From: Candidatus Fermentibacterales bacterium | Lineage (GTDB): Bacteria > Fermentibacterota > Fermentibacteria > Fermentibacterales > JAFGKQ01 | Reading direction: 5' to 3' | Assembly: GCA_016928495.1 (NCBI GenBank) | Contig: JAFGKQ010000211.1 | Span: 1-10,353, forward strand | DNA length: 10,353 nt | Shown: positions 1-10,353 of the stretch, piece after piece | How positions within the stretch are numbered: position 1 is the stretch's first letter | How the letters are laid out: every line of letters begins with the position of its first letter | Program-made: the position numbers and the translations under genes | Notes under the pieces: model-generated | Seen by the model: only the letters and a program-made list of their open reading frames with translations | What the model was told of the DNA's origin: nothing | The model's database searches: none

Positions 1-507
1 AGGCGTGCCCTGCGCTACCAGGGCAAGGGCTGCCTGACCGCCGTGGAGAACGTTCAGGAGTACATCTCCCGGGCCTTCGAGGGAAGAGACCCTTCGCGCA
101 TGACCCTTCGCGAGATCGACGGCACGCTCCTGGCACTGGAGCGGACCCTGGCCGTTCGCAGGGGCAAGCTCCCGGCGGATGCCGATCATGACCGGTGCGT
201 GGCGGTGATGCAGCGCAAGCAGAATCTCGGGATGAACGCCGTGCTGTCCGTGTCGCTCTCCCTGGCCCGCGCGGTTGCCAGCGTTAGCGGCATGGAGCTC
301 TACGAGCTCCTGAGAGAGGAGATGCTAGGGCTGATGGACAGGCTCGCCGCCGATTGCGGTATCGAGATAGCCGGAAGCGGGCTCCCGGACTACGTCGGCG
401 CGCTGCGACTGTGCGCCGCGGTCCTGGATGAGAGAGGGACTCCCCTGTACCAGGCTCTCAGGCGGATCTCGGGAATCTACGATCCCGAGAGCCCGTCGCG
501 TGGCTGA
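1..507 (+). CDS. Enolase N-terminal-domain-like protein, 5' end outside window, no catalytic barrel
   Basis: The reading frame is open from the window edge, so the true start lies upstream. The first visible residues (GKGCLTAVENVQEYI) match the enolase signature GKG.LKAVENVNE.I, followed by an ID..L..L stretch and then LGMNAVLSVSLSLARAVA...G.ELYELL, which matches enolase LGANAILGVSLAVAKAAA...G.PLY.YL. These are the second half of the enolase N-terminal capping domain. Between the two motifs there is an extra charged segment compared with normal enolase. True enolase then continues into a barrel of about 290 residues carrying the Mg ligands and the catalytic Lys/Glu/His; here the protein ends about 65 residues after the ELYELL motif, in a tail that repeats a TPLYQAL phrase. 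It cannot therefore be a normal 2-phosphoglycerate dehydratase. The next gene starts inside its last codons, which implies coupled translation. A non-catalytic partner or regulatory subunit is my inference. Confidence 0.82.
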   Translation, partial: RRALRYQGKGCLTAVENVQEYISRAFEGRDPSRMTLREIDGTLLALERTLAVRRGKLPADADHDRCVAVMQRKQNLGMNAVLSVSLSLARAVASVSGMELYELLREEMLGLMDRLAADCGIEIAGSGLPDYVGALRLCAAVLDERGTPLYQALRRISGIYDPESPSRG

Positions 508-3500
508 TACGGTGCTCTCACACCCGTTCGGCGGATCGCGCATCACTCCGCAGCTCGACGAGCTCCTGGACACGGATCTCGGAGACAGGCTCCTCGATCT
601 GCACAGGGCGCTTCGGGAGGCCTTCGTCCTGGGCTCCGACGAGAGGGCTCGGCGCGATGCGGTGCATCTCTACGTCGGGCTCAAGAGCGAGGTGGCCAGG
701 AGGACCGGGCACTTTGGCATAGTCAACAACAGGGTCTATGGAGCCGGGCGTGATCTCGTCGTGCCCTACCTGGTGGGCGACACGCTGGTCGTCCTCCGTG
801 AGGGGGATGACGGGACGAGGCCCCTGGGCGTGAGCTATCCCCCTCGGGGGACCATCTTCACCGATTCCCTCCTCGAGAGGGAGGCCGGCTTCCGTGGCGA
901 GGTCATAGATCTCGAGCCGAGGATCTTCGTCTTCGATGCCGAGCAGGCCCAGGATGTCAGCATCACCAGGATCAGGGATCTCGCCGGGCTTCTCCAGCGA
1001 GTCAACGAGACCACTAACCGCAACGAGGCCGTCTACTTCCTGAGGTTCATGGTTGCACGGCTCTGCAATCCGGCCTTCGAGGCGCTCGTGGGTGCCAAGA
1101 ACCTCAAGCCGGAGGTCCGTCATCTGACGATGGAGCTGGTCAGGTTCCTCGACAATCCGCTGGCCAGAAGGATCCCGCTGCTGGTAAGACTGCTGGTGAG
1201 GAACATCTCCGGTCTCGTGATGAGGCCGAACCACATAGACCGGCTCTGGAACGATACCATAGACCTCGCGGAGATCCACGTTCCAGGAAGCGGGATCGTG
1301 AACGAGCTGCGCAGAAGCACCCATCACGCCCTCGGCAAGCGGTCTCTGATGCTGGCCCGGGCCTATCTCGATTTCCTGGAGAACGGCAATCTCCGGGAGC
1401 TGCAGGACCTGGGGTATGACGCGCCTCCCTCGCAGGCCGACCTGAAGGCGCGCAGCAGCGAGGAGGCGGTCGCGATCCTATCCCGCGTCGTGGGGGATCT
1501 GGAGAGCCTTCTGGGCACGACCGAGGTGCTGTCCAGGATCCGCGAGTGGCAGGCGGAGTACGAGGATGCTCTGCTCAGATGCGAGTTCGGACGCAGTCTC
1601 TACGAGGAGATGGCCGAGGTGCTAACCGGGCTTCGCAGGGTCAACCGCTGGGCCTGCCTGCACCACCTCCGCATCCTCAGGAGGAAGGGGGAGTCCGTCA
1701 GCTGGCCCACGCAGCTGCGAGAGAGCTTTCTCGAGGGAGTCGCGTCTCTCATGGAGGCCTCTGCCGATCAGCCGTCCACCGATGTGGAAGGACTGGCCGG
1801 CGCACTGGAGCGAGTAGTGAGGGATTTCGCGGAGGGTCTCAGGGAAGCCTATACCGCAGAGCTGTTCCCGCGTCTGGAGGCCGCCCTGTCATCCTACGAG
1901 GAGGGGCGCCACTTCGACGCTTTCTCCCAGCTCCGCGGGCTGCGCAAGTCGCTCTGGCATCTCATAGGACGGGGCGGCTTCACCGAGCAGAGGTACTTCC
2001 TCTATCAGCTCGACTGCCTGCTGGAGGAGATGGGGTACCTCGCTCTCACGCACGTCTCCACCGAGTTCGAGGAATCGGGCATGGACCTGCCCCGCTGCCT
2101 GGAGATCATCGGGATGTCCGTGCGCAACCTGGCCTTCGACGGGAAGTACTCGAGGGAGCTGCTCGACCTGGCCGGTATGCTCACGCGGCCATCCCGCTCC
2201 TACGCAGAGGCAACCGATCTTCTCGAGTACATACAGAAGAACTACCACAAGATCGTGCAGCGAGTGACCTCGCCCTACGAGAAGATGCGTGACAGGCTGG
2301 GGCTGGACGAGGAGGAGCTGCTGGTCATTCTCGGGAACATGAAGCGCTACATGCACGACCTGAACAGCATGGTCCACTTCTCGGACATGGCCCGGGCCTT
2401 CATCCTCGAGGAGGCTCCCGAGTCCTTCCGGCCGGTAACCCCCGGTGCGGCCCGGATCGACGCCGAGGACTTCCCGATCGTGCACCTCTCGCACCCCGAG
2501 GGGATAGGCTCGCTCGTGGAGAGCAGCGGCGAGGACGGCTGGTCGCTCAGGGAGGCATACGGGGGCAAGGGAACGGGCCTCGTGTACATCAGCCATCTTC
2601 ACATCCCGACCCGTGACGGCTTCGTGCTCCCTACCTGCATTGCCAGGTCCGGCAGGCACAGGAGCGATCCTCAGTGGCTCAGGGAGAGGGTGCTGGAGCA
2701 CCTCTTCCTCCTGCAGGAGGACATTGCCGGGAGGTCGGGCAGACCCAAGCGGTGCGGAGACGTCGAGGATCCTCTGCTGCTCGCAGTCAGGGGAGGCTCC
2801 GTCTTCTCCATGCCCGGCATCATCCCCACGGCCATCTTCGTGGGCATGAACGACGACATTGCCGAGAGCCTGGCCCGGGACGACCCCTGGCATGCCTACG
2901 ATTCCTACCGGCGCTTCCTGGCATCGCTCGCCAAGACCCTCTGGGGGATCGACTTCGAGGAGTTCGACCTGGTGGAGGCGGCCAAGCGCAAGTACGGGGT
3001 CGCCTACAAGACCGAGCTGCCTTGGGAGGGCATGCGGGAGGTCGCGAGAAGCTCCAGGTACATCCTCGGCGACATGGGGCACGGCGACGAGCTGGAGGCG
3101 CTCCTGGCCGATCCTGTCGAGCAGGTCGTGGCAGCCGTCACCGCCGTGTACGAATCCTGGGACCGCGAGATGCCCCGGAGGTATCGAGCCATCAAGAGCG
3201 TGTGCGACACATGGAACACCGCTGTCATCGTGCAGGAGATGGCTTCAGGCAATCGCCAGACCGAAGAGGTCAGGGACGGCATGGACGAGACGCGGGCCTC
3301 GCTGACCGGCGTGATACCTCACACCAGGCTGACCGACAGGGGAATCAGGCTGTTCGCCGGGGAGATCAAGTTCTCCGCCTCCGGAGATGACCTGGTCGGG
3401 GGAATGACACGCCCGACCTCGTTCCGGACCATGCGGGAGCTCAACACGCTCATGCCCATGCTCAACAGGAGGCTCAGGCACACCGTTGCCAAGCTCAGGA

Positions 3501-4045
3501 GGTTCCAGGGAACCGACCAGGAGATCGAGTTCACGGTCGAGAGGGGTGTTCTGAGCGTTCTCCAGTCGAGATCGGCGGAGATGGCCTCGGACAAGAACCT
3601 GGCCAGCTTCGCCGACCCCGGGCCCGAGGCCACCAAGGGAATAGGCATCAGGGGAGGGGCCTTCAGAGGGCTCGCAGCCTTCGACGACGAGGATTTGCTG
3701 GAGCTCTCGGGGTCAGTCCTCGCCGACCGGGATGACGTGGACGGAGTGCTGATGGTAGTGGAGAACCCTTCTCCCGATGACATACCCATGATCCTGCAGG
3801 CCGGAGGGCTGCTGACGGTGAGGGGCGGCTCCAGCTCCCATGCCGCTGTGGCCATAAACGGTATCGACAAGAGCTACAGCGCGGTGCTCAGCGCTATCGG
3901 GCTCAGGGTGGACGCGGAGTGCCACAGAGCAGTGATACTCGGAGAGGACGGGAGCACCCGCCACAGGATAGAGAAGGGTGACCTGGTCTCGATCCAGGGC
4001 ACGAGCGGGGAAGTCTACATCGGAACCAGACCTCTCAGGTCCTGA
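500..4045 (+). CDS. PPDK/PEP-synthase-like ATP-grasp and phosphohistidine protein lacking the PEP/pyruvate barrel
   Basis: This 1181-residue protein starts, on my choice, at GTG 500, because that gives an 8-bp overlap with the upstream stop and a weak GAGAG eight bases upstream; GTG 512 is possible. Residues 1 to about 640 are mostly helical and contain no domain I recognise. Residues about 655-1030 are a PPDK-type ATP-grasp domain: GGKG at 688-691 (K690 matches the ATP-binding Lys), VRGG with R764 followed by SMPG and VGMND, the IEFTVE motif with E1010, and LQSR with R1024. Residues about 1040-1178 are the swivelling phosphohistidine domain, with LTVRGGSSSHAAV placing the phospho-acceptor at H1114 and a final GD.VSI.G..GEVYIG. 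PPDK and PEP synthase continue with a PEP/pyruvate barrel; this one stops. It probably takes phosphate from ATP onto H1114 and passes it to an unknown acceptor, as rifampin phosphotransferase and the glucan dikinases do with other substrates. The acceptor site could lie in the N-terminal region or in a partner protein. The acceptor is unknown. Confidence 0.85.
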   Translation: MADTVLSHPFGGSRITPQLDELLDTDLGDRLLDLHRALREAFVLGSDERARRDAVHLYVGLKSEVARRTGHFGIVNNRVYGAGRDLVVPYLVGDTLVVLREGDDGTRPLGVSYPPRGTIFTDSLLEREAGFRGEVIDLEPRIFVFDAEQAQDVSITRIRDLAGLLQRVNETTNRNEAVYFLRFMVARLCNPAFEALVGAKNLKPEVRHLTMELVRFLDNPLARRIPLLVRLLVRNISGLVMRPNHIDRLWNDTIDLAEIHVPGSGIVNELRRSTHHALGKRSLMLARAYLDFLENGNLRELQDLGYDAPPSQADLKARSSEEAVAILSRVVGDLESLLGTTEVLSRIREWQAEYEDALLRCEFGRSLYEEMAEVLTGLRRVNRWACLHHLRILRRKGESVSWPTQLRESFLEGVASLMEASADQPSTDVEGLAGALERVVRDFAEGLREAYTAELFPRLEAALSSYEEGRHFDAFSQLRGLRKSLWHLIGRGGFTEQRYFLYQLDCLLEEMGYLALTHVSTEFEESGMDLPRCLEIIGMSVRNLAFDGKYSRELLDLAGMLTRPSRSYAEATDLLEYIQKNYHKIVQRVTSPYEKMRDRLGLDEEELLVILGNMKRYMHDLNSMVHFSDMARAFILEEAPESFRPVTPGAARIDAEDFPIVHLSHPEGIGSLVESSGEDGWSLREAYGGKGTGLVYISHLHIPTRDGFVLPTCIARSGRHRSDPQWLRERVLEHLFLLQEDIAGRSGRPKRCGDVEDPLLLAVRGGSVFSMPGIIPTAIFVGMNDDIAESLARDDPWHAYDSYRRFLASLAKTLWGIDFEEFDLVEAAKRKYGVAYKTELPWEGMREVARSSRYILGDMGHGDELEALLADPVEQVVAAVTAVYESWDREMPRRYRAIKSVCDTWNTAVIVQEMASGNRQTEEVRDGMDETRASLTGVIPHTRLTDRGIRLFAGEIKFSASGDDLVGGMTRPTSFRTMRELNTLMPMLNRRLRHTVAKLRRFQGTDQEIEFTVERGVLSVLQSRSAEMASDKNLASFADPGPEATKGIGIRGGAFRGLAAFDDEDLLELSGSVLADRDDVDGVLMVVENPSPDDIPMILQAGGLLTVRGGSSSHAAVAINGIDKSYSAVLSAIGLRVDAECHRAVILGEDGSTRHRIEKGDLVSIQGTSGEVYIGTRPLRS

Positions 4046-4063: not shown

Positions 4064-4885
4064 CTAGTCCCCTGGCCAGCGCTCCAGCCTGTCGCGAATC
4101 TGCGTGTAGACCTCGCGCCTCCTGGCGACGTTGTAGTACTCCGCGGCCCGGGCGCCCCCGTAGACGTTGGCTCCGTAGAACGAGAAGGTGAGCCAGCCCA
4201 TGAGCATGCTGGTCGAGAGGTTGTCCTCATCTACGGCCGCGTATAGCAGGGCGCCGGCTGCTGCCGTCATCCCGAACGCCATCAGGCCGTCCTTGACATG
4301 ACCGCAGATCATCTGCCCGGAGCCTGGCAGGATCGCGCTGGCAAGACCGCACCAGAACGGGCTCCTGCCGGGTAGTCGGTCTCCGCGGGCCGCAATCCCG
4401 CGCAGCTCCCCGGCGAGCTGCCCCCTCGACCCGGGCCATTCCTCCTCCAGCTCGCCGAGGCCCTCTACGGCGAGACTCCATTCACGGTCGTACACGGGCG
4501 TGAGAGCGCCGAGAAGCTCTGCCCGGAAGACCAGGTCCTCGCCGGTTGCGGTGCGTGCGGCCTCTTCGTAGAGCTCGATGGAACGTCCGTGGAAACCCAG
4601 GTCGGCGTATACCGCGCCCGCCCCCATGGCTGCCAGAGCCCTGGAGTCCGGGTCCTGTAGCCGGGACTCGAGCAGGGAGTAGAGAGTGAGAGACTCCTGG
4701 TAGCGACCAAGCGCGTGCAGGCAGCGTGCCAGCCGGAGAGCCTCCTCTGGCTGGCCCAGGGTGTCGCCGCTCTCGTAGAGCACTCTCGAGTACTCAAGTG
4801 CGGCCAGCCCGTAGTCTCCGCCATCATAGAGGGCGTCGGCGAAACTGAGAGTGAGCGTCAGAAGGGCAGCAGCAGGCAGTCCCAT
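4064..4885 (-). CDS. Secreted TPR-like protein with C-terminal PGSGQ-type membrane domain
   Basis: The protein is 273 residues. The ATG at 4885 is supported by GGAAGG nine bases upstream and by a short hydrophobic leader (residues 1-18, ending ADA) that looks like a signal peptide. Residues about 19-150 are alanine- and leucine-rich helical pairs typical of TPR repeats (for example a Y..GDYGLAALEYSRVLY unit and RSIELYEEAARTA). After a linker, residues about 176-245 hold a SAILPGSGQM.CG..KDGLMAF motif and about three hydrophobic segments (around 176-190, 201-218 and 225-242). This pattern recurs in small bacterial membrane domains described by the motif PG.GQ.Y.G (DUF5683/TM2-like); the exact family assignment is inference. 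Its start lies inside the upstream YidD-like gene (28-bp overlap), so the two are probably co-translated and act together at the envelope. Its stop is 18 bp from the stop of the convergent dikinase-like gene. Confidence 0.72.
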   Translation of the reverse strand: MGLPAAALLTLTLSFADALYDGGDYGLAALEYSRVLYESGDTLGQPEEALRLARCLHALGRYQESLTLYSLLESRLQDPDSRALAAMGAGAVYADLGFHGRSIELYEEAARTATGEDLVFRAELLGALTPVYDREWSLAVEGLGELEEEWPGSRGQLAGELRGIAARGDRLPGRSPFWCGLASAILPGSGQMICGHVKDGLMAFGMTAAAGALLYAAVDEDNLSTSMLMGWLTFSFYGANVYGGARAAEYYNVARRREVYTQIRDRLERWPGD

Positions 4886-5340
4886 GGCTCGAGGCCTTCC
4901 ATGATGTGAACCGGATCGCTCAGCCGCGACCCGGCCGGCTCGTAGTAGTCCTGCTCCCTGGCCGAGGCATGACACCTGGTCCATCTCTCCAGAGCCATGA
5001 TCACTCCGACCACCGGACCGTATTCCGAGATAGCGAGTTGCCCGTAGATGGAGCAGGAGGGGTAGAAGTTGCATCTGCGCGCGAGGAGATCCCTCGCGAG
5101 GAGCCTGTACTCGAAGAGCAGCGCGTCCGCAGCTCCCGGAACTGCCGGGACGGGATCGGTGGCGGGGAGCGATACGGGCTCCCATGCGCACGACAGAGAC
5201 AGGAAGAGAATGACAGCCGCCAACACGAGCCCCCCGAAGAACCGTTGCCCCGATATCCTAGACTCGAGGGAAGCCGGCCGCAACTCGCCCTTGGTCCGCA
5301 GGGTCTGCTCCGGGTTGATCGGGAGTCCTCCGGGTCTCAT
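4858..5340 (-). CDS. YidD-family protein with an added N-terminal signal or anchor
   Basis: The protein is 160 residues. Residues about 75-125 contain the YidD (membrane protein insertion efficiency factor) signature: C90-NFYPSC96-S.Y, then a G..(V)G..MAL.RW.RC123-H, preserving the three family cysteines. Ordinary YidD proteins are about 70-100 residues, associate with the inner face of the cytoplasmic membrane, assist YidC/Sec insertion, and sit beside rpmH-rnpA-yidC. This copy has about 70 extra N-terminal residues, with a basic stretch, a hydrophobic segment at about 36-50 and a Cys at 51 (LSLSC), which could be a membrane anchor or an atypical lipoprotein signal. The residue at -3 is Ser, not the usual Leu, so lipidation is doubtful. 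Either reading would put the YidD domain outside the cytoplasm. No Shine-Dalgarno site is visible before ATG 5340, so the start is less certain than the domain. The neighbour is a secreted TPR protein, not yidC, which suggests a paralogue with a specialised envelope role. Confidence 0.78.
   Translation of the reverse strand: MRPGGLPINPEQTLRTKGELRPASLESRISGQRFFGGLVLAAVILFLSLSCAWEPVSLPATDPVPAVPGAADALLFEYRLLARDLLARRCNFYPSCSIYGQLAISEYGPVVGVIMALERWTRCHASAREQDYYEPAGSRLSDPVHIMEGLEPWDCLLLPF
4895..4900 (-). promoter_or_regulatory. Ribosome binding site GGAAGG of the TPR-like gene
   Basis: On the minus strand GGAAGG lies nine bases before ATG 4885, inside the end of the YidD-like gene. It decides the start of the TPR-like protein against a much longer open frame reaching back to 5191, whose N-terminal part is only the out-of-frame reading of the YidD gene. 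Confidence 0.55.
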
Positions 5341-5396: not shown

Positions 5397-7193
5397 TTGG
5401 ACCTTCGAGCAGTTACACTCACGCTTGCGCTGATCCTCCTGGCCGGGCTCTCGACCTGTCTGGCGCAGGGAGGCGAGGAAGACATAGACAGCCTCTGGGG
5501 CGAGGAGGACTCCGAAGGCCACCACTACTGGACTGGTCCCGAGACGGGCCCCGCCACACCATCTGCGGCGGTTCTGGTCCCGGACGCGGGCACCGTCTGG
5601 GAGCACGGGCAGACCGGCGTGAGCATCGAGTGGAGCGGTCTGGAGGATGTCCGGATAAGGATAGAGCTCCTCCGGATGGGCGAGAAGGTGGCCGACATCG
5701 CTCCCTGGGAGCAGGGCACGGGCAGTTTCACGAGGACAGCTCCCGTTGCCGAGGCCTGGGGCAGCGGCGGCCACTTCCGGGTGAGGGTTGTCAGCGAGGA
5801 TGGCGATTCGATAACCAGTGAGGAGTTCAGGATACTCGCCCCGTTCACCGTGATCGAGCCTGACGAGGGATCGAGATGGGCCTTCTTCGAAGAAGGTGCC
5901 ACGGTCTCCTGGACGAGGATCGACGGGGCCGAGGTCATGCTGGAGCTCTGCGATCCCCGCGACTCCTCGGTGGTCGCCGCGATCTCCGGCTGGGTCCCGA
6001 ACGACGGGAGCCTGGAGCTGCCCTCGGTCTCGCCCGACTGGGGAGGGGAGGGCGCATACCTCCTCAGGATCACGGATGACCTCGGCAACTCCAACTACAG
6101 TGATTCGTTCACCATCGATGGCATAAGGATCGATTCCCCGGGGCCGGGCTTCGAGTGGGAGATCGGCGGCCCCGTTCCCCGGATCGCATGGAAGTGCCTT
6201 GGCACGATCGTGAACATCGAGCTCTGGGAAGAGGACGGGCTCGAGCCCCTTGCGGTCCTCGCGGAGTGGGTGCCCAACTCGGGCGCCTGGCAGGTGGTCC
6301 TCCCGGCAAGCGGGGAATGCCTGCCGGTGCAGGGCGGCAGCTATCTCATCCGCATTCGCAATGACCTCGGGCAGAGCGGGACAAGTGCCCGATTCGAGGC
6401 AGTCAACAGCGACGACACGCCCCTCGGGGCAATCCAGCTCACCGGAACCTGCGAGGGCTCTCTGGACCGTCCGGGCGATCTCGACTACCTGGTCCTCACG
6501 GGGGTCCCGGGGATGGTGAACAGGGTGGAGGCGGAGGCGGGGGGGCCGATCGGGATCTCCGTGCTGCTTGCAGCCACGCTCGACACCCTTGCCGAGTCCG
6601 GCACGTCCTCGGTGCAGTGGTACTCGGAGCGGGGCGGCGACTGCTTCGCCGTGTTGAGGTCATCAGGCGGGGCAGCTGCCGGCCCCTACCGCGCGACCCA
6701 CTCCTGGTCGAGGCCGGTCCAGCGCCACAGACCCTGGCGCGTGGCTCTGGTGTTCGGCGGCGCCGGCGGCGAGTTCGGTGAGATCGAGAGAGGTCACCTC
6801 GGCATCCGCTTCGGCTGGCTTCCGAGGAGGTTCCTCGAGGCGGGCCTCAGGCTGATGTACTGCACCGTGGACCCTGACATCTACTTCTTCAACCCCTGCT
6901 CCTCCATAGTCTATGCCGGCCCGTTCCTGGGGTTGCGCAGCAGGGAGTACTCGAGGTTCTCGGGCTTCGCCGGCCTGGGCTGGCTCTTCAGCCTCGATGC
7001 CGAGGACAGGATCCTCGCTCTCGACTACATGGACTACGAGAGCAAGCTCGACGGCGGCATCAGGCCCTACGCAGGCGTGGACTACAGGGTCCTGTCCAGC
7101 TGGCGGGGCGCTGCCCTTCACGCTCTGTTCCAGTACACCTTTGTTCCCGGAACGGCCGGAGAGGCCGATCTGGGCCTGGATGTCGCCTTCTGA
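5397..7193 (+). CDS. Secreted Ig-like repeat protein with C-terminal outer-membrane beta-barrel
   Basis: The protein is 598 residues with a TTG start backed by a strong ribosome binding site. Residues 1-24 form a signal peptide (hydrophobic core ALILLAGLS, then CLAQ). Three related beta units follow at about 57-147, 150-241 and 243-336, each with a P..G..W..G..V.I.W opening, a hydrophobic V.IEL strand, a W.P..G-type turn (WVPNDG, WVPNSG) and a Y.IRI..DLG..-type end. This resembles the Kre9/KNH-like Ig fold (PF10342-like). Residues about 343-437 (GT..GSLD.PGDLDY...) resemble a pre-peptidase C-terminal (PPC) beta domain. Residues about 446-598 alternate aromatic and hydrophobic strands (for example HLGIRFGWLPRRFLEAGLRL, YAGVDYRV) and end in VAF. 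A terminal Phe is the usual signal for BAM-assembled outer-membrane barrels, and the length suits about eight strands. The likely role is a surface or periplasmic binding or structural protein; the ligand is unknown. It is probably in an operon with the TIR gene 37 bp downstream. Confidence 0.72.
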   Translation: MDLRAVTLTLALILLAGLSTCLAQGGEEDIDSLWGEEDSEGHHYWTGPETGPATPSAAVLVPDAGTVWEHGQTGVSIEWSGLEDVRIRIELLRMGEKVADIAPWEQGTGSFTRTAPVAEAWGSGGHFRVRVVSEDGDSITSEEFRILAPFTVIEPDEGSRWAFFEEGATVSWTRIDGAEVMLELCDPRDSSVVAAISGWVPNDGSLELPSVSPDWGGEGAYLLRITDDLGNSNYSDSFTIDGIRIDSPGPGFEWEIGGPVPRIAWKCLGTIVNIELWEEDGLEPLAVLAEWVPNSGAWQVVLPASGECLPVQGGSYLIRIRNDLGQSGTSARFEAVNSDDTPLGAIQLTGTCEGSLDRPGDLDYLVLTGVPGMVNRVEAEAGGPIGISVLLAATLDTLAESGTSSVQWYSERGGDCFAVLRSSGGAAAGPYRATHSWSRPVQRHRPWRVALVFGGAGGEFGEIERGHLGIRFGWLPRRFLEAGLRLMYCTVDPDIYFFNPCSSIVYAGPFLGLRSREYSRFSGFAGLGWLFSLDAEDRILALDYMDYESKLDGGIRPYAGVDYRVLSSWRGAALHALFQYTFVPGTAGEADLGLDVAF

Positions 7194-7230
7194 TCCCGGC
7201 GTTCTCTCCGAAGGCCCTGGAACGTCCTGC

Positions 7231-8595
7231 ATGAGCGTTTCGCACGTATTCATCGCTCACTCATCGGAGGACCAGAGCATAGCCTCGAGGATCCTGGAGG
7301 TGCTCGAGGCGGAGGGCGTGCGCTGCTGGATAGCCCCTCGCGACATACCTCTCGGGACCCAGTGGGCGGAGGCCATTCTGGATGCCATAGAGGCCTCATC
7401 GGCCCTTCTCCTGGTCTTCTCGGCCGGATCCAACGACTCCCCGCAGGTGCTCCGCGAGGTGGAGAGAGCCGTCAGCAAGCGGGTGCCCATCTTCCCTGTG
7501 AAGATCGACCAGACCGAGCCCTGCAGGGCCATGGAGTACTACCTCAGCAGCCATCAGTGGAAACAGCTTTTCCCAGGGCGCATCGAGGACAGGTTGTCCG
7601 AGCTGCTTCCATCGATGAAGGCCCAGCTCGGGATGGACGTCATCGAGAGGGCAATGGACGGGACCGCTCGGACGCACGAGGCCCCGGAGAAGCCGCGGCG
7701 ACGACTCGGCTGGGCCCTGCTCGCGATCCCGGCCGCAGCCCTGATCGCTATCCTGGCGCTAGGTGTTCCATGGCTCGGACGCGAGACTGGAGGGACCGGG
7801 CCCGACGCCGTTCCCGACACCGCTCTGACTCCTGAGCCGGTTGTCTCCTCCGGCACGGGCCCGTGCGAGGGGCCTGTGGAGGGCATGGTCTTCGCCCGGG
7901 TTCCCGGAGGGGAGTTCCTGATGGGCTCCCCCGGGTCGGAGCGCGGGCGCGACGAGGACGAGGGACCCCTCCATACGGTGACGGTAGGCCCCTGTCAGAT
8001 CATGACCACGGAGGTCACCCAGGGCACATGGGAGGCCGTCATGGGCGACAACCCGGCGGAGCACGCCGGGTCCGAGTACCCGGTCGAGCAGGTTTCCTGG
8101 TCGGACTGCTTGGCGTTCACCGACTCGCTGGATGCACTGGACCCGGGCCATGACTACCGGCTGCCGAGCGAGGCCGAGTGGGAGTATGCCTGCAGGGCGG
8201 GCAGCTCCACCCGGTTCTTCTGGGGGGAGGACACCCTCGAGGTGGAGATCGGCGACTTCTGCTGGTACGAGGGCAACTCGGGAGAGGAGACCCATGCCGT
8301 AGCGTTCAGGGAGCCGAATCCCTGGGGTCTCTTCGACATGTCGGGCAACGTCCTGGAGTGGTGTCAGGACTGCTACCAGCCGGGCTACGCCGGGGCGCCG
8401 GAGGACGGGTCCGCATGGACTCCGCCCGGCGCCGACTCCCTCCGTGTGGTCAGGGGTGGGAGCTCGAGGAACAGCCCTGCAGGCTGCAGGTCCGCCTGGA
8501 GGAGCTCCTATCCGTCTGGCGGGAGCTCACCGGGCATCGGTTTCCGCGTGGTCAGGACGGAGAGAGACTCCCCCGGGGGATCCTGGCTGCGCTAA
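7231..8595 (+). CDS. TIR domain - transmembrane helix - SUMF1 (FGE-like) domain protein
   Basis: The protein is 454 residues. ATG 7231 places the TIR domain at the N-terminus as usual; a possible in-frame ATG at 7180 would overlap the previous gene. Residues 4-125 are a TIR domain: VFIAHSSEDQ.IA..I...LE..G, BB-loop APRDIPLG at 35-42, W..AILDAIEASSALLLVFS, and REVERAV..RVPIFPV, where E76 lies at the position of the catalytic Glu of NAD-cleaving TIR enzymes such as SARM1. A basic stretch (KPRRR) precedes a single hydrophobic helix at about 159-181, so the TIR should face the cytoplasm. Residues about 214-443 are a SUMF1/FGE-type domain: GEFLMGS, VTQGTW..VMGDNP, VSWSDCLAF, YRLPSEAEWEYACRAG, WGLFDMSGNVLEWC and RVVRGGSS...C419-RSAWRSS..GFRVV. 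Authentic formylglycine enzymes carry two catalytic Cys after RGGS; only the second (C419) is kept and the first is Asn. It is therefore probably a binding or sensor version. Downstream NADase signalling is inference. Confidence 0.85.
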   Translation: MSVSHVFIAHSSEDQSIASRILEVLEAEGVRCWIAPRDIPLGTQWAEAILDAIEASSALLLVFSAGSNDSPQVLREVERAVSKRVPIFPVKIDQTEPCRAMEYYLSSHQWKQLFPGRIEDRLSELLPSMKAQLGMDVIERAMDGTARTHEAPEKPRRRLGWALLAIPAAALIAILALGVPWLGRETGGTGPDAVPDTALTPEPVVSSGTGPCEGPVEGMVFARVPGGEFLMGSPGSERGRDEDEGPLHTVTVGPCQIMTTEVTQGTWEAVMGDNPAEHAGSEYPVEQVSWSDCLAFTDSLDALDPGHDYRLPSEAEWEYACRAGSSTRFFWGEDTLEVEIGDFCWYEGNSGEETHAVAFREPNPWGLFDMSGNVLEWCQDCYQPGYAGAPEDGSAWTPPGADSLRVVRGGSSRNSPAGCRSAWRSSYPSGGSSPGIGFRVVRTERDSPGGSWLR

Positions 8596-9626: not shown

Positions 9627-10353
9627 TCAGGGAAGGGGGGTCAGGAAGTACTCCCGGGAGCCGGTCAGCGGCTCCATGCCGCCCAGTCCGGTGTCGTACC
9701 CGAGCGCCGGGTCGAAATCCACGGGGTCCCAGGCCGGTGCCCCGGCCAGTCTGGCATACCTGTCGTAGGTATCGATATCCCAGGTCGTGCACCAGTTCCT
9801 GTAGGGGAACAGGGAGTCGGAGTGCCATGCGAGCGAGTGGTCGTCGCCGTAGAGGTAGAGGCTGGCCGCCCTCTCGTGCTCGAGGTTCATCCCGTCACCG
9901 ATGACCAGGATCAGGTGCCGGACCGGCTCTCCGTCCAGGTCCGCACAGCCCGCCAGGACCCGGAAGACGTGAGTGTTGTCCAGGAGCTCCCCGCTAGCGG
10001 GTGCGGGAGGCAGGCCCTCCAGCGATCGCAGGAGCTCGAGCGCTCTCACCGGTCCCCTTGCAGCGATCGTCACCAGCTCGTTCGTGTGCTCGCAGCAGCC
10101 GTAGCTCACATCGCCGTCCGGGTAGGACCAGTTCTCGCCGTCCCATTCCATTGCCGGCAGCATGCCCCTGGCCGGTATGCGTTCGGGATCGAGCCTCATG
10201 AAGCTGTTCGAGTGGTCCGAGGTCACGATGAGCAGAGTGTTGTCCCAGGCCAGCGCGCTCGAGCTGTCGACGTAGCTCAGCACCGAGCGGACCGCCTGCT
10301 CGAGGTCCCACATGGCGGCGATCATCCAGGCGTAGTCGTTGCCATGGTTCGCC
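9627..10353 (-). CDS. Alkaline phosphatase (5' end outside window) with a second N-terminal-type segment at its C-terminus
   Basis: Reading from the window edge, the frame opens with A-N-H-G-N-D-Y-A-W and continues into WDLEQAVRSVLSYVD, then NTLLIVTSDH (Asp at 10217-10215, His at 10214-10212), then EHTNELVTIAARGP (His at 10088-10086), and DNTHVFRVLAG. These correspond to the C-terminal half of E. coli-type alkaline phosphatase, with the counterparts of metal ligands H331, D369, H370 and H412 all present. The enzyme hydrolyses phosphomonoesters, normally in the periplasm. Family members normally end here. This one instead continues with RHLILVIGDGM (Asp at 9896-9894), which is the beginning of the alkaline phosphatase fold and carries the D51-type metal ligand, then about 85 residues typical of the stretch before the nucleophile (T..WDIDTYDRYA, FDPALGYDTGLGG, EYFLTPLP). 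It stops before the TDSA-type nucleophile motif. It is either a circular permutation or a tandem fusion with a truncated second copy. Confidence 0.8.
   Translation of the reverse strand, partial: ANHGNDYAWMIAAMWDLEQAVRSVLSYVDSSSALAWDNTLLIVTSDHSNSFMRLDPERIPARGMLPAMEWDGENWSYPDGDVSYGCCEHTNELVTIAARGPVRALELLRSLEGLPPAPASGELLDNTHVFRVLAGCADLDGEPVRHLILVIGDGMNLEHERAASLYLYGDDHSLAWHSDSLFPYRNWCTTWDIDTYDRYARLAGAPAWDPVDFDPALGYDTGLGGMEPLTGSREYFLTPLP

Follow-up and report, generated by a model that had tools for sequence, protein, structure and literature searches.

The window, a 10353-base stretch that is the entire contig G000:C306:1-10353 of draft genome G000, carries at one edge the 3′ half of a gene whose product is probably a PhoA-family alkaline phosphatase (PF00245) that has undergone natural circular permutation, a reading to which we give a probability of about 0.86 and for which we infer the 5′ half, folding, activity and export. 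An N-terminal IGDGM strand marks the start of the fold in alkaline phosphatase, a textbook enzyme, and the evidence below supports an arrangement in which the usual first ~90 residues of the window-type enzyme, with the zinc-binding aspartate, have been transferred from the start of the chain to its end. To our knowledge, circular permutation of alkaline phosphatase was known only from the laboratory.

The gene at the edge of the window

The reading frame (10352-9627, minus strand) has 241 codons followed by a TGA stop at 9629-9627, and is open at the contig edge, past which the 5′ half of the gene lies. Its motifs are, in order, ANHGND, TSDH, EHTNE, DNTHVF, RVLAGCADLDGEPVRHLILVIGDGM, TWDIDTY and EYFLTPLP, and the initial annotation was correct in placing the C-terminal motifs of the family (SDH at 10220-10212, EHTNE at 10091-10077, DNTHVF at 9980-9963; all minus strand) ahead of an IGDGM segment (GDGM at 9899-9888, minus strand) in the same chain. 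Three parts can be distinguished on the minus strand. The first (9936..10352) is homologous to the canonical C-terminal part and includes the H331-type ANHGND, the D369/H370-type TSDH, the H412-type EHTN, and DNTHVF. It is followed by a linker of about six residues (DGEPVR, 9918..9935, with approximate boundaries set by comparison with canonical ends) that leads from the ancestral C-terminus to the ancestral N-terminus. The last part (9630..9917) is homologous to the canonical N-terminal part, with HLILVIGDGM, TWDIDTY and EYFLTPLP, and ends just before the place where TDSA stands in canonical members, as had been recognized from the sequence. The codon for the D51-type metal ligand, a residue that thus resides in the C-terminal part of the protein, is at 9894..9896, exactly where it was originally placed, and the ligand role of this residue is presumably that of its E. 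coli PhoA counterpart.

A canonical query from Desulfocarbo indianensis matches the frame in two segments in swapped order, first with residues 338–475 (E=8.3e-24) and then with residues 5–95 (E=2.5e-18), and at these values the swapped order reflects homology and not a chance motif. The half gene carries all of the family motifs that fall in its part (H331, D369/H370, H412 and D51 types), and there is a single IGDGM within the contig. As the sequence is a fragment, it scores 19.6 bits against PF00245, below the cut-off of 24.4, and its predicted structure, from a thin alignment, has a mean pLDDT of 44.3 and is uninformative. The assembly is in 337 contigs and ~81% complete, and queries with the Desulfocarbo protein and with a complete relative (G002; see below) found no match to the 5′ half of the gene elsewhere in it. 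Beyond the stop, searches of the window with alkaline phosphatase N- and C-segments gave no credible match (best E ~0.001, at a far-off and unrelated place); with no continuation of the family sequence downstream, the in-frame DAVDS, for which either decay of a nucleophile motif or chance had been suggested, is rejected as a decayed motif and attributed to chance.

Other genes on the contig were noted as well. One, at 7219-8595 (plus strand), joins a TIR domain and a formylglycine-generating-enzyme-like (FGE-sulfatase) domain, separated by a stretch that looks hydrophobic, and the TIR part has weak matches to SAVED-TIR and Thoeris models. A second encodes a 1205-residue product (428-4045, plus strand) in which ~700 residues that have no Pfam match above cut-off precede a nucleotide-binding part resembling pyruvate phosphate dikinase and a PEP-utiliser domain. 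A YidD-like protein with an N-terminal extension (4858-5340, minus strand) overlaps a mechanically called frame for a TPR-like membrane protein (4064-5191, minus strand).

A complete relative in a second family

The same order of parts is present in G002, a genome from another family of the same order, in a 516-codon open reading frame that is collinear with window residues 1–228 across the junction, unbroken, at 38% identity. The likely start is an ATG at L008 5689 (a TTG at 5611 is possible), from which the protein reads MIIDRIAFLTALAILIRNAGLVGLLPATDSASAATALATG, such that it begins at the nucleophile motif (LLPATDSASAAT). The motifs follow as TDSAS, SHATPA, DRENY, EQGDIDWASH, TADH, SEHTN and DNTQV, with IGDGM near the end, and every catalytic motif is accounted for: the nucleophile serine and the R166-, E322-, D327-, H331-, D369-, H370-, H412- and D51-type residues. 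In any frame of the 8449-base contig there is one TDSA (L008 5770) and one IGDGM (L008 6889), with TDSA first. The Desulfocarbo query run against the whole G002 genome matches this frame only, with residues 110–472 and then 5–83, and at E≤1 it has no further match in either the G002 or the G000 genome. There is no second IGDGM in the frame, in the 5.7 kb upstream, or in the rest of the genome (E≤1), and no credible match to a remnant of the N-terminal segment upstream of the TDSA. The G002 protein, of 480 residues, scores 124.1 bits against PF00245 (curated cut-off 24.4) and is the only one above threshold among the 42 genomes of the phylum. Its order is TDSA, DH, HT, IGDGM and not the canonical IGDGM, TDSA, DH, HT; the two halves are swapped within one reading frame, the moved segment is not duplicated, and the chain has one IGDGM and one TDSA where a tandem protein has two of each. 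With these features, which support the reading very strongly, the G002 protein is by definition a circular permutation, and a permuted homologue rather than a canonical member of the family.

The window and G002 proteins have several features in common that are absent from 13 canonical domains. These include an insertion of two residues after the HTN strand (GPVRALELLRSLEG in one, GPAAAIAVLDSLEG in the other), an additional one-residue insertion before DNT, AASL in place of AASR after IGDGM, and, within the GDLPxQ motif, P-x-M in place of P-x-Q. The pair likewise share three inserted residues ahead of the FP of the N-part, but this insertion is present as well in the first domain of tandem proteins (see below). 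Five of the seven window deviations at invariant columns are also deviations in G002 (hypergeometric P=0.0099), the two proteins end at nearly identical points, and their halves and linker correspond. In the tree, G002 is a long branch, and the two proteins lie on open branches that are not grouped by the tree alone, with a common clade not rejected (AU p=0.42–0.57). To choose between one and two events we used the shared insertions and substitutions instead of the tree, and since these are missing from the canonical domains, the simplest and most likely reading is that one ancestral permutation lies behind both genes.

Through G002, circular permutation, first offered from the window alone as one of two readings beside a tandem fusion, is supported strongly but indirectly for the window gene itself, as the complete relative starts near TDSA and has its sole IGDGM at the C-terminal end. 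The window gene might instead be a tandem fusion, with a complete first domain and its own IGDGM past the contig end and a second copy truncated before the nucleophile. Tandem PhoA fusions do exist and the contig breaks off short of the part of the gene that would tell, but in G002, the sole relative that spans the junction at full length, no first IGDGM was found in the frame, upstream, or in the genome, and the common end point and shared derived features also weigh against a fusion, which we consider unlikely. An assembly or sequencing artefact that joined two genes or created the stop, a concern raised at the outset, has in its favor a draft assembly of 337 contigs and a gene at a contig edge. 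However, G002, which is independent and from a different family, has the same order with a short linker in a gene at 38% identity, and this excludes a join of two separate genes; the G+C content by codon position is alike on both sides of the window junction (0.63/0.48/0.87 and 0.64/0.46/0.89), and the family sequence does not continue after the stop, so that an artefact of either type is extremely improbable.

Tandem genes and a second breakpoint

A likely origin for the permuted gene is permutation by duplication, in which a head-to-tail, in-frame tandem gene would have formed first, with the first copy afterwards losing its N-terminal part and the second copy losing the remainder. In-frame head-to-tail tandem enzymes of 993–1001 residues with both motif sets are conserved in three genomes of another phylum, G151 (L043), G448 (L072) and G447 (L073), and genes of this type are as would be predicted for intermediates on that route. 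They have the same junction of C-part, short linker and N-part within one chain as the window gene, but differ in having two complete domains, each with IGDGM and TDSA. The tandem domains form their own clade apart from the window and G002, and the tandem genes are thus regarded as parallels of the intermediate and not as the ancestor of the permuted genes. In G449 (L070) a stop and a frameshift interrupt the tandem, and a 610-codon frame extends from the middle of the first copy through the junction into the second. An independent tandem on a more distant branch is in L003 (G086:C223), where a 1260-codon frame has two PF00245-type domains followed by other sequence.

The G449 gene, whose remaining frame spans both copies, raises the prospect that the window gene is likewise what remains of a tandem gene, non-functional and in decay, with its order kept by chance, and the long branch of G002 could be taken in the same way. 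Against this, open frames, metal-ligand motifs and shared insertions have been kept in two lineages at 38% identity, and we regard a remnant as quite improbable, more so than a tandem fusion. The invariant columns of the 13 canonical domains are retained at 38 of 45 positions in the window protein and 73 of 93 in G002, and the majority residue is matched at variable columns at 64 of 168 and 101 of 309 positions, respectively. That the catalytic motifs and most invariant columns have been kept argues for selection on what would be a working, permuted enzyme.

A second candidate permutant was found from a weak junction match (E=8.5e-4) in the single-contig genome G313, and is a 566-residue protein encoded at L080 1429-3126 (G313:C1, around 7258228-7259925). 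It has a signal-like N-terminus, WTSHSLRLVPVY...YLDNTNIADMQQAAL, a short linker, VIFDGMD and the core, and it stops after VTADHGHYLNLDQP. The HT...DNT segment stands in front of the (I)FDGM strand, with the cut between the DH and HT metal ligands, and the first part aligns with the C-terminal end of a normal-order Nostoc alkaline phosphatase (WGSHSRRLVPVY), with identity at 13 of 22 positions (E=3e-6 in a single comparison). These data, although fewer than for G002, support a permutation in G313 that arose separately, in another branch of the family. We think it probable that PhoA-type enzymes have been permuted naturally at least twice with different breakpoints, before the nucleophile in the window and G002, and in G313 between the DH and HT ligands, with a short linker between the old C-terminal helix and the IGDGM strand each time; the nucleophile of the first type would follow the new N-terminus by ~30 residues, and may be at or next to the end of a signal peptide or membrane anchor.

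Architecture and relation to known enzymes

In E. coli PhoA, D51 bridges the Zn2 and Mg sites beside D369, H370 and S102, Zn1 is held by D327, H331 and H412, and the IGDGM strand is in the central sheet next to the strand ending in the DH pair. By analogy, the permuted chain would start at the nucleophile-serine motif (TDSA), and its core, with the R166-, E322-, D327/H331-, D369/H370- and H412-type residues, would extend as far as the old C-terminal helix, where a linker of a few residues would lead to the old N-terminal strand with IGDGM as the end of the chain. This strand would adjoin the SDH strand in the fold, the C-terminus would supply the two-metal site with its D51-type ligand, and, from PhoA biochemistry, the active site may be rebuilt unchanged. 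Provided that the old termini lie near each other in the fold, a few residues would be enough to close them, and the cut could be made in the variable stretch that precedes the nucleophile helix. The linkers from the DNT-helix to IGDGM are ~4–7 residues in the window, G002 and the tandems.

The permutant has the same motif set as PhoA-type alkaline phosphatases (PF00245; E. coli PhoA, PDB 1alk and 1y7a), with TDSA, HATPA (H153 type), the R166-type arginine, E-x4-DW-x2-H (W328 type), DH, HT and IGDGM in common, and differs in that IGDGM is C-terminal rather than N-terminal. Among solved structures, the G002 protein is best matched by 1y7a, which we take to be an E. coli PhoA double mutant, and which the H-type HATPA and W-type DWASH of G002 resemble. 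Closest to the window (43–52% identity per half) is a canonical lipoprotein/periplasmic subfamily that includes Desulfocarbo indianensis (L007), which alone turned up as a relative in the genome collection, and G226, G269 and G316, although unlike the window protein its members have a single domain in normal order. Junction-spanning queries of ~480 genomes, a sample with one genome per species and biased towards relatives, found the window-type junction only in G000 and G002, both from the one phylum of 42 genomes, and no relatives were found in plasmids or viral contigs. The engineered permutant of E. coli PhoA is reportedly of high specific activity, to go by the title of the report. That enzyme is laboratory-made (Kojima, Ayabe and Ueda 2005, J Biosci Bioeng 100:197, listed among the references of PMC2395249, PMC3281007 and PMC8513176). 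No natural permutant of alkaline phosphatase was found in an open literature library, which leaves out most subscription journals.

Profile searches split or under-score permuted genes, as with the window half that falls below the Pfam cut-off, and more of them may therefore be hidden. A natural permutant would mean that this metalloenzyme can be cut beside its nucleophile and can take a metal ligand from the end of the chain, and the duplication route by which it may have arisen is directly testable through the tandem genes elsewhere in the family.
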